Below, piece by piece: positions 17,358-19,920 of a stretch of 64,000 bases of DNA (position 1 is its first letter; every line of letters starts with the position of its first letter). Source of the stretch: Paraglaciecola arctica BSs20135 (lineage in GTDB: Bacteria; Pseudomonadota; Gammaproteobacteria; Enterobacterales; Alteromonadaceae). The notes beneath the pieces were generated by a model. The model worked only from the letters and a program-made list of their open reading frames with translations. It did no database searches and had not been told where the DNA came from. The position numbers and the translations under genes were made by a program. The stretch is taken from the NCBI RefSeq assembly GCF_000314995.1, contig NZ_BAEO01000037.1, positions 1 to 64,000 on the forward strand, given 5' to 3'.

Positions 17358-17891
17358 TTGTCTGCTAAATGGATTGTTGGTGTGTGGTGTGCAAGCTGTC
17401 TAGCTGGATTGTTATTTCTGTCTTTCAGTCAGCTAGACGATTTCGATCCTGAATCGAAACTCTCTATGGCTATCACTGATATCGAATTTGAACAAAAATT
17501 CATTTCTCAATTACAAAAAAATCACAGCTCAATTGGTCAGTCAATAATACATTTTTCAGACAATGATTGTTTTTGTGAAACCATTGCACAAAATCACATC
17601 GCACGTTTATCTAACAACATGATCGCTAACGGCTTCCATAATATTCATATAAATATTAATACAGATCCAGAGTTTGCTCACTTTGTCCCTTCCACTCCAG
17701 CGGTTGCAATAGTAGGAGCACTAGAAGAGCTTATATACTTTGGTCCATATTCAGAAGGTTATGGCTGCTTAAGAGGTACCGGGCTTGTAGATGCGCTACT
17801 TCCTAAAATAAATAGCACTATAGTTGAAAACACAATTCTCATAACAGACGCAAAAGGTTGTTATTGTAAAACATCAACACTTTCGATCTAA
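17358..17891 (+). CDS. DUF6436-like membrane-anchored thiol protein
   Basis: A 177-residue protein with an N-terminal membrane anchor (WIVGVWCASCLAGLLFLSF). The rest is probably periplasmic with a thioredoxin-like layout: DNDCFCETIA (C-F-C), then VPSTPAVAIVGALEELIYFGPYSEG (the Thr-Pro cis-proline signature), and a C-terminal GCYCKT. This resembles the DUF6436 family, and a redox or metal role is inferred only. It begins at a TTG three bases after the chemoreceptor stop, indicating coupling. Its end overlaps the convergent soxR by 18 bases. Confidence 0.7.
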   Translation: MSAKWIVGVWCASCLAGLLFLSFSQLDDFDPESKLSMAITDIEFEQKFISQLQKNHSSIGQSIIHFSDNDCFCETIAQNHIARLSNNMIANGFHNIHININTDPEFAHFVPSTPAVAIVGALEELIYFGPYSEGYGCLRGTGLVDALLPKINSTIVENTILITDAKGCYCKTSTLSI

Positions 17892-18317
17892 AATAACCGG
17901 ACCCGGTCCTTCAATCTCAAGGGCGTCTTCTGGGTTATAAATTGGGCAACTTTGCATAGATAAACAACCACAACCTATACAGCCATCCAATGAATCTCGA
18001 AGCTTAGTTAATGAATTAATTTGTTGATCAAGTTGTTGTTGCCAACGTTGTGACAATTGTGCCCAGTCTTTTTTATCTGGGGTGCGCTCATTAGGCATGC
18101 CTAAAAAGGTTTGATGAATACTTTGTAGACTGATCCCTAATCTTTGTGCCGCCTTTATCACGGAAATTCTGCGTAACACATCTCGTTTGTAACGCCTTTG
18201 ATTACCTTGATTACGCCAACTTCTAATTAAGCCTTTTTGTTCATAAAAGTGCAGAGTGGAAACCTTCACTCCGGTGCGTTTAGCCACATAACCCACCGAT
18301 AAATTTGCGTCTTCCAT
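17874..18317 (-). CDS. soxR: Redox-sensitive transcriptional activator SoxR
   Basis: A 147-residue MerR-family regulator. The N-terminal winged helix is SVGYVAKRTGVKVSTLHFYEQKGLI, with the R-N-x-G-N-x-R-R-Y turn, a dimerisation helix follows, and the C-terminal [2Fe-2S] ligand set is CIGCGCLSMQSC. Oxidation of the cluster by superoxide or redox-cycling drugs switches on promoters with a 19-base spacer (family knowledge). It is divergent from such a promoter at 18368-18398. No soxS is seen nearby, so it probably activates its targets directly, as in other non-enteric bacteria. Confidence 0.97.
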   Translation of the reverse strand: MEDANLSVGYVAKRTGVKVSTLHFYEQKGLIRSWRNQGNQRRYKRDVLRRISVIKAAQRLGISLQSIHQTFLGMPNERTPDKKDWAQLSQRWQQQLDQQINSLTKLRDSLDGCIGCGCLSMQSCPIYNPEDALEIEGPGPVILDRKC

Positions 18318-18367
18318 ATCCTCGAGCTCTTATTGAATAATCATTTCAAATATAGAGAAAAAAGCGC

Positions 18368-18398
18368 TTTACCTCAAGTTAAGATGAGGTTTTATCAT
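18368..18398 (+). promoter_or_regulatory. SoxR-activated promoter
   Basis: TTTACC (-35, 18368-18373), a 19-base spacer, then TATCAT (-10, 18393-18398). The spacer region carries CCTCAAGTTAAGATGAGG (18372-18389), one base off a perfect SoxR box (CCTCAAGTTAACTTGAGG in E. coli, differing at two positions). The 19-base spacing is the MerR-family signature. It fires away from soxR, toward the 30-codon frame at 18445. Confidence 0.9.
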
Positions 18399-18444
18399 GC
18401 AACTATCGGAAACAAAATACATTTATCAAACGAGGTAAAAAATT

Positions 18445-18537
18445 ATGAAAAATCTAATACCCACAGTCAAAAAAAATTTTAAACATTTCGTCAAAAGGTT
18501 CTTAGATATCTACAACGGCACTATGTATTTCAAGTAA
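18445..18537 (+). CDS. SoxR-regulated 30-residue small protein (candidate)
   Basis: A 30-codon frame beginning MKNLIPTVKKNFKHF and ending in VKRFLDIYNGTMYFK. GAGGT lies eight bases before its ATG and it starts about 40 bases below the predicted SoxR-dependent transcription start. It carries seven basic residues and one acid, and is likely a cationic amphipathic helix that could lie on a membrane or bind a partner (inference). It is the only frame between the SoxR promoter and the convergent MAPEG gene, which ends four bases away. I do not recognise a family. Confidence 0.6.
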   Translation: MKNLIPTVKKNFKHFVKRFLDIYNGTMYFK

Positions 18538-18541
18538 TAAA

Positions 18542-18928
18542 TTATGGGATCGCCAACCAAACAAGTGCCAATGATGATATAAAACCAATGCCCCAGAAAC
18601 TGCTGCGCAACACATGTTTGTCAAAATAGTATGCCAATAGATAAGCTACCCTTGACGCAACAAACGCAATAGCAAAATATTCTGCTAATTGCCCCGCATT
18701 ATTTGTTACAAGTACTGCTAGGGCCCCAGGAGTAAACATAGCTAAGGCTTCAAAACAATTTTCATGAGCCGCTTTAGCTCTAGCACCAAAACCCGATAAA
18801 GATTTTTGTTGCTCACGGGGGTTTCGATTATCATAGCCACCAGCCTTATTCATAGCCAAAGCCAAAGGCGCTTTAGCCAGAATAGGCATTAATGTTGCGA
18901 TGAATAAACAGATGATAATGATGGTCAT
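18542..18928 (-). CDS. MAPEG family membrane protein
   Basis: A 128-residue protein with four membrane segments. The MAPEG signature appears as NPREQ followed by GFGARAKAAHENCFEALAMF, with the conserved E-N-x-x-E-A core. Relatives include glutathione-dependent microsomal transferases and many bacterial proteins of unknown role. It is convergent with the SoxR-driven frame; read-through from that promoter would be antisense to its mRNA. Its own promoter lies in the short spacer before 18970. Confidence 0.88.
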   Translation of the reverse strand: MTIIIICLFIATLMPILAKAPLALAMNKAGGYDNRNPREQQKSLSGFGARAKAAHENCFEALAMFTPGALAVLVTNNAGQLAEYFAIAFVASRVAYLLAYYFDKHVLRSSFWGIGFISSLALVWLAIP

Positions 18929-19002
18929 AGTGGTTCCTTAAACTCAATTAAATCTTAATTTGTAGGCTAGTGTGCAAGCAAATAAGTGAAAACGGAAGTA
19001 GC

Positions 19003-19920
19003 TTGAAGACAAAAAATCTAACAACACTGTTGCAAATAGCCACCCCTTCAGTTGAAACAATAATCCAACCTGATTGGGCAGCTAAACACGGCATAACACT
19101 AACGGTAAAACGAGATGATTTGTTACACCCAGTCATTTCAGGTAATAAGTGGCGTAAGCTCAAATATGCATTATTAGCTGCTATTGAAGCCAACACTAAA
19201 CATATCATCAGTTTTGGTGGCGGATTTTCAAATCACCTGCACGCATTAGGTTTTTGCTGCCAGCAACTCAATATTCAATTCACAGCGATCATCAGAGGAG
19301 ATTATTCACAAAACCCTAGTCCTATGTTGCAAGATTTATTAAATTGGAATGCCAACATCCAATATGTTGACAGAAAGACATATCAACAACGAGCCGAACC
19401 TGATTACCTAAAAATGCTTCAGCAACAATACCCCAGCGCTCTACTTATTCCAGAAGGCGGCTCGCAGCTAGAAGCGTTACAAGGTGTAGCTGAAATTGTT
19501 GAAGAGTTAAGCCATTCCTATGACTATGTTTTAGCGCCTGTCGCCAGCGGCGGCACTCTTGCTGGATTAATTACCGGTATATCCAAGTACCTAGAACCAA
19601 TCGACTGTAAAATATTAGGCATTGCCGTGCTTAAAGGTGAAGGCTACCTAGAACAGCTGGTTACAGATTTATTAGTAAAGCATGATCATTCAAAAAGCTG
19701 GCAAATCAATCATGATTATCATTTTGGTGGATATGCTAAGTCTAATGATAACCTCGCAGAATTTTGTCGCGACTTTTTTCAACAAACGGGAATAAAAATA
19801 GAACCTGTTTATAGCGGAAAGCTATTTTTTGCATTACGAGAACTGATTAATAAGGGTTATTTTCCTCAAAAAAGTCGTATTTTAGCTCTGCACACAGGAG
19901 GTTTGCAGGGGGCTAGGTAG
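19003..19920 (+). CDS. PLP-dependent ACC deaminase / D-cysteine desulfhydrase family protein
   Basis: A fold-type II PLP enzyme of about 305 residues. VKRDDLLHPVISGNKWRKLKYAL carries the Schiff-base lysine after GNKW; SFGGGFSNHLHALG and PEGGSQLEALQG follow, with the glycine loop APVASGGTLAGLITG. It is close to 1-aminocyclopropane-1-carboxylate deaminase and D-cysteine desulfhydrase; the substrate cannot be told from sequence. I prefer the TTG at 19003 because GGAAG lies just upstream. A GTG at 18970 extends it by 11 residues. It stands alone. Confidence 0.88.
   Translation: MKTKNLTTLLQIATPSVETIIQPDWAAKHGITLTVKRDDLLHPVISGNKWRKLKYALLAAIEANTKHIISFGGGFSNHLHALGFCCQQLNIQFTAIIRGDYSQNPSPMLQDLLNWNANIQYVDRKTYQQRAEPDYLKMLQQQYPSALLIPEGGSQLEALQGVAEIVEELSHSYDYVLAPVASGGTLAGLITGISKYLEPIDCKILGIAVLKGEGYLEQLVTDLLVKHDHSKSWQINHDYHFGGYAKSNDNLAEFCRDFFQQTGIKIEPVYSGKLFFALRELINKGYFPQKSRILALHTGGLQGAR

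Follow-up and report, generated by a model that had tools for sequence, protein, structure and literature searches.

The usual picture of a SoxR regulon is SoxS together with pumps and redox enzymes. At the enteric soxS promoters among the loci read here (L125–L136, with SoxS recognised by eye), TTTACCTCAAGTTAACTTGAGG is present, the –10 element occupies the same place as in the promoter described below, and transcription diverges from soxR; the product, however, is the SoxS transcription factor, whereas in the family described below it is a microprotein, which an enzyme may or may not accompany. The SoxR regulon of Streptomyces coelicolor comprises six genes and operates without SoxS (PMC4146615). 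The likeness lies in the few redox or drug-handling genes under direct SoxR control; the targets named in that paper's account are enzymes and a transporter, and the term "small protein" has no occurrence in it, whereas the operons of the family described here open with a microprotein gene. In Escherichia coli, a study of BluR describes a MerR-like regulator encoded divergently from the four-small-protein operon ycgZ-ymgABC (PMC3509220), and thus a MerR-family regulator adjoining, divergent from and directly controlling small proteins. BluR differs in being a repressor in blue-light and biofilm signalling, according to the same text, whereas the regulator here is SoxR and the proteins, of 21–63 residues, have a C-terminal motif of their own. 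No link to YcgZ, YmgA or YmgB appeared in the Pfam or NCBIfam matches of the members.

Two further groups of short peptides invite comparison. The arrest or leader peptides TnaC, SpeFL and ErmCL are short, with a variable start and conserved residues up to the stop codon; the microprotein shares these traits and differs in its variable or absent downstream gene, tandem duplication and mixed stop codons. PqqA is a tiny protein with a T-M-Y stretch near its end that needs an E-x3-Y element. A PqqA-type RiPP precursor was considered for the microprotein and rejected: the likeness is confined to TMYF, E-x3-Y is absent, 51 of 68 peptides have N at position –6 and none has E there, and position –2 varies.

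The soxR-divergent promoter of Paraglaciecola arctica

The locus lies in the window, which is the whole stretch of 64,000 nucleotides analysed (positions 1 to 64,000 of contig NZ_BAEO01000037.1 of P. arctica BSs20135), and its features are collected in Table 1. An original prediction, made from the letters of the window, had placed a SoxR promoter here, upstream of a 30-codon frame with a ribosome-binding site and a convergent MAPEG gene. All of these elements were found as claimed. The two hexamers stand 19 bases apart, the spacer holds a CCTCAAGTT...TGAGG operator, and a cognate SoxR is encoded nearby, as in a canonical SoxR promoter. The divergent gene, left unnamed by the prediction, is soxR itself, and its translation carries CIGCGCLSMQSC, whose cysteines have the spacing typical of the SoxR iron-sulphur cluster. 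Across the genome (5.96 Mb), CCTCAAGTNNNNNTGAGG has two matches, one of them the operator of Table 1, and the reversed-pattern control has none. The microprotein frame begins 77 bases after the promoter start, and only 4 bases separate its stop codon from the end of the MAPEG gene. This promoter layout is common to the loci of relatives. On the far side of soxR, a DUF6436 protein (17358–17891, TTG start; PF20029, 1.1e-34) overlaps the soxR 3′ end with its own.

Table 1. Features of the putatively SoxR-controlled locus in window coordinates
Feature	Position	Strand	Evidence or remark
soxR, redox-sensing MerR-family activator	17874–18317	–	TIGR01950, 1.4e-64, 216 bits (cutoff 116.9); divergent from the promoter
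Promoter-like site for soxR itself, TTGAGG-17-TATATT	18349–18377	–	Consensus match only; –35 overlaps the SoxR box
SoxR-type promoter	18368–18398	+	–35 TTTACC 18368–18373; 19-base spacer with operator; –10 TATCAT 18393–18398
Operator 18-mer CCTCAAGTTAAGATGAGG	18372–18389	+	Inside the promoter spacer
Ribosome-binding site GAGG	18432–18435	+	Ends 9 bases before the ATG
30-codon microprotein gene, product MKNLIPTVKKNFKHFVKRFLDIYNGTMYFK	18445–18537	+	ORF and conservation
Conserved 16-residue C-terminal segment FVKRFLDIYNGTMYFK	18487–18534	+	Family pattern F[LI]xx[FY][FL]x[LVI][FY]NxTMxxK-stop
MAPEG-family gene, convergent	18542–18928	–	PF01124, 2.9e-25; neighbour, outside the unit
PLP-dependent enzyme, ACC deaminase / D-cysteine desulfhydrase group	18970–19920	+	TIGR01275, 8.5e-39, 133.7 bits; curated cutoff of 289.4 not reached

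The prediction had further proposed that the direct output of SoxR here is a tiny basic, amphipathic protein. Conservation of the frame together with the box in many genera, described below, supports this reading at the level of sequence, although the microprotein is not the sole predicted SoxR output: the second exact box of the genome (G000:C26:55028–55054; L023, L110) stands before a VOC-like gene and has no microprotein behind it.

Conservation and selection of the frame

A peptide search of 60 genomes, the window's own included, retrieved the full-length peptide from three other genomes of the genus (G015, G017 and G018) at 57–60% identity, and an exact SoxR box precedes each frame by 75–76 bases, so that the homologue search with a box check proposed in the prediction turned out in its favour. 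Weaker matches (E 0.005–1) fell at 12 places in 11 genomes; the one looked at, in G001, is a broken copy. A box-first survey covered 395 genomes of the family, 73 of which have an exact box, and 394 genomes of the order (partly the same), with an exact box in 71; the loci at these boxes were fetched, apart from five enteric soxS-type sites of the order survey. Across the order, 68 distinct peptides of 21–63 residues were gathered as short frames behind boxes. Their starts and lengths vary and their beginnings share little, and the last ~16 residues are kept according to the family pattern of Table 1.

To put a number on this ending, the strict form N.[TVAI][ML]..K-stop was counted in 35 of 82 ORFs behind box sites and in 1 of 3061 control ORFs from the same loci, with both the loose and the strict pattern having been picked once the first loci had been viewed. 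The 82 ORFs are ATG frames of 20–65 residues that start 25–140 bases after the box, drawn from 148 unique box sites (146 in the locus reading), a few of which were not blind, having been fetched for the peptide or motif. Diverged frames that miss the regular expression (L021, L079 and L081) were scored as lacking the frame. These three are short and occupy the same place behind a SoxR box; L079 and L081 have in common an ending that runs from WQNPTF to SARK or SSKK, and perhaps represent a second class of the same microprotein.

A motif-first search for [FY]N.TM..K-stop in 196 genomes of the family, with no box required, gave 40 matches, against 19 for the reversed pattern; it is partly independent only, since its genomes share the family draw with the 395, and the 394 overlap that family. 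An ATG frame preceded by a SoxR-type box holds 24 of these matches: 20 newly read, 2 at loci already known (L047 and L099), and 2 as second members of tandem pairs, whose box has a one-base variant. The other 16 lack a box (10–12 of 19 positions) and a soxR in their locus, and at none of them does an ATG frame of at least 20 residues end; they look like chance occurrences, and their number is about as expected. Scanning named genomes with one exact pattern, which undercounts, found 19 stretches, in Paraglaciecola, Glaciecola, Aliiglaciecola, Alteromonas, Lacimicrobium, Salinimonas, Thalassotalea and Colwellia, in unclassified Alteromonadaceae and Colwelliaceae, and in two MAGs named only Gammaproteobacteria.

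Conservation acts on the amino acids. Of the distinct C-terminal codon strings, 54 in number, 53 close with K, 48 have M at position –3, 41 have T at –4 and 38 have N at –6; within the T codon the third base is random (1.99 bits) and the second conserved (0.56), and the stop codons divide into 39 TAA, 10 TAG and 5 TGA. The Ka/Ks comparison that the prediction had suggested yielded a dN/dS of ~0.26 over 9 independent close pairs, with 0.16 in the last 16 codons and 0.34 before them; the pairs were selected at 50% amino-acid identity or more, which lowers dN, and one pair reached 0.75. Paraglaciecola pairs gave 0.22–0.54 in five of six, the sixth having a saturated dS. Free third positions together with a low dN/dS point to selection on the protein, and most of all on its tail. 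The frame thus combines amino-acid-level conservation with purifying selection, the latter in pairs picked at ≥50% identity, as expected of a coding gene.

The conserved positions –15, –14, –11, –10, –8, –7, –4, –3 and 0 fall on the same helical face, and the periodicity of conservation peaks at 100 degrees over the last 14 residues (permutation p 0.023) and the last 18 (p 0.017), and at 95 degrees over the last 12 (p 0.07), a helix signal of no more than moderate significance. AlphaFold models the window peptide, as a single chain, as one helix over residues 4–29 (mean pLDDT 79.8, pTM 0.37), a model silent on any partner. "Cationic", as the prediction had described the product, suits the window peptide (charge +6, counted by hand; maximal hydrophobic moment 0.63) and not every member of the family, in which net charge runs from 0 to +8 (mean +3.9).

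Pfam, NCBIfam and PHROGs scans of 24 members gave nothing significant (best E 0.048, 0.026 and 0.041, each from a single member), a PDB profile search likewise (best 0.12), and a plasmid search gave no match. A phage search gave weak matches in 90 records, 8 of them listed (best E 1e-2). The one inspected, in phage NBEco005, is a 29-codon TTG frame nested, in a different reading frame, within an annotated gene of 126 codons; it ends NGTME, the final K being absent, and was read as chance. A hydrophobic type I toxin was also rejected, as the window peptide has no transmembrane-like stretch (mean Eisenberg hydrophobicity –0.24 to 0.13 over 18-residue segments). The papers searched, a set outside which most subscription papers and all bioRxiv preprints fall, describe no SoxR-driven microprotein. 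The family thus has no significant match in the family libraries searched and no earlier description in those papers.

A small protein probably acting in trans, and its alternatives

We consider it probable that these frames constitute a SoxR-controlled microprotein family whose members act in trans, docking on a partner protein by way of an amphipathic helix at the C-terminus. Redox-cycling compounds would oxidise SoxR, which would remodel the 19-base-spacer promoter, and the resulting SoxR-dependent transcript would open with a protein of 21–63 residues (30 in the window). The variable N-terminal part would serve as a tether, and the C-terminal ~16 residues would fold into an amphipathic helix, one face of which presents the conserved F/L, F/Y, L, F/Y, N, T, M and final K. 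The product would then be a small helical adaptor or inhibitor on a conserved partner, rather than a leader for the next gene, and its operon partners would be mostly a VOC/glyoxalase-like gene and in a few cases an FMN-reductase or acetyltransferase gene.

Because the microprotein gene mostly lies beside soxR, the foremost candidate for that partner is the SoxR system, meaning SoxR itself or its reductase. By tblastn with the stricter boxes, 148 sites in all, the frame is present at 52 of 112 soxR-adjacent boxes and at 1 of 36 non-adjacent ones; with looser boxes, after three rows with a broken or short SoxR had been dropped and identical SoxR sequences merged, it is present at 62 of 121 and at 2 of 36, respectively. 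In addition, five genomes (G000, G015, G017, G018 and G091) combine a frame-bearing soxR box with another exact box elsewhere, and in all five that other box lacks the frame. A product that feeds back on SoxR itself or on its reductase, damping or prolonging the response, would account for this linkage, and also for G001, where a TAG interrupts soxR, the loss of one base shifts the microprotein frame and the operator is altered, so that gene, frame and box have decayed together. This possibility is a sub-case of action in trans, with which its likelihood overlaps, and we hold it as possible though doubtful. Vertical inheritance of a soxR-divergent operon explains the linkage equally well, taxon and soxR adjacency are partly confounded, and three carriers (L082, L227 and L241) have a SoxR-type box and no soxR in the ~1.4–1.5 kb upstream. 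An F at column 70 (zero-based) of the SoxR alignment accompanies 57 of 61 sequences with the frame and 23 of 42 without; the kinship-aware comparison leaves 4 independent pairs on supported branches, too few to decide for or against an association between SoxR residues and the frame. In its more specific form, in which the helix binds SoxR or the Rsx/RseC reductase and so determines how long the redox response lasts, as a feedback arm where enterics have the SoxS relay, the proposal seems to us unlikely.

Whatever its partner, the microprotein is dispensable, since 59 of the 121 soxR-adjacent boxes lack the frame by the regular-expression test; among these sites are soxS promoters of enteric bacteria (13 SoxR rows, family f18). 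In a quick SoxR tree with many unresolved forks, built from 116 rows of which 61 have the frame, presence of the frame requires 21 changes, compared with 38.7 under shuffled labels and none as low in 500 shuffles: the frame is clustered on the tree, and often lost or regained. The outcome named in the original prediction as speaking against it, a box kept while the frame goes unconserved, is not what the family displays, frame and box being conserved together; G021, of the same genus, sets a limit to this, having lost the frame while it retains an intact soxR (88%) and a worn box. G001 and G021 together indicate that SoxR can persist without the microprotein, and that the sole case of a broken soxR has a broken microprotein too.

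The other way in which the conserved tail could act is in cis. A leader of this kind would sense drug or redox state through its ending in the ribosome tunnel, by nascent-chain arrest or translational coupling, and so tune the next detoxification gene; we judge it rather improbable, even though the microprotein is the first gene of its operon and, as is typical of arrest leaders, has a variable N-terminus and a conserved segment reaching the stop codon. The neighbouring genes speak to both sides. Among 68 carriers, a set that overlaps the 68 peptides used for charge and periodicity and equals it in size by coincidence, a VOC-type gene comes next in 49 (called from gene starts with LEHxN, one representative being confirmed as PF00903), and in 27 of these within 21 nt, taking the earliest possible start. 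Another ORF follows in 7: two of FMN_red type, one Acetyltransf_2, another of Glyoxalase type, an ECF sigma factor 146 bases away, a PLP-type enzyme in the P. arctica locus L202 (by eye, a look-alike of the PLP-type enzyme of the window), and one doubtful frame. In the remaining 12, the stand-alone microprotein of the window included, no same-strand ORF of at least 100 residues starts within 400 nt, and the other 56 have a downstream gene placed as for a leader, a correspondence of position and not of function. Of the four Paraglaciecola carriers in the dN/dS set, three belong to these 12, yet their dN/dS is low.

Many VOC-type genes, conversely, manage without the microprotein, lying directly behind SoxR boxes with no such frame, and in four microprotein-bearing Paraglaciecola genomes the VOC-like gene stands under a SoxR box of its own without it. 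Tandem paralogous frames behind one box occur in one genus, in all four genomes found (G033, G104, G137 and G165; loci L030, L089, L233 and L234), with both frames intact in three and the second copy broken by an internal stop in G165 (L089); no ORF of 100 residues lies within 400 bases of them, and no enzyme gene behind. About 170 bases past the pair in L030 is a terminator-like hairpin with a T-run, found again in sequence of the L233/L234 type; when L030 was scanned for terminators by a simple method, the output named two different sites but not this folded hairpin. Mixed stop codons, and one extra residue beyond the final K in L022 and L035, also sit poorly with an arrest leader. The microprotein is thus independent of any single downstream gene, and a variable or absent neighbour, tandem copies without an enzyme and a VOC gene with its own box favour a product acting in trans over a leader.

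Two sets of loci were noted in passing. The boxes at L083, L084, L085, L140, L155, L163 and L175 stand before genes that by eye are of flavodoxin-like reductase, N-acetyltransferase-like and MFS-like type, and outline a detoxification regulon. In seven other genomes of the same genus (L183–L189), a different SoxR-like MerR regulator (44–49% identity) diverges from a VOC-like gene, with another palindrome, TTGATCTAAAGTTAGCTTTAGATATTAAGCT and variants, in the promoter; it is possibly a sister redox switch.

The prediction had also suggested that the transcript could run antisense into the MAPEG gene, and this may be so: a scan of the plus strand from 18391 to 19100 listed no terminator-like site, which would allow read-through from the frame into MAPEG. 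A transcript that works as a regulatory RNA or as MAPEG antisense, with the frame incidental, is very improbable: conservation is at the protein level with free third positions and a dN/dS of 0.26, the P. arctica locus L202 and the 49 VOC-type loci have another gene next instead, and an Rfam scan of 18300–18700 returned a single match, far below its gathering score, which was rejected. A chance short ORF has next to no probability and is rejected; 30-codon frames are common in the window, but the enrichment of the strict ending behind boxes and the remaining conservation tell against it.

In a mostly marine group, many soxR-divergent promoters thus appear to have as their first product a protein of 21–63 residues outside the family libraries searched, so that in P. 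arctica and many of its relatives part of the redox-stress response appears to go through a mini-protein. With a mutable motif, many natural variants, natural losses (G001 and G021) and a natural duplication, the family offers study material on the tuning of the response to redox-cycling antibiotics.
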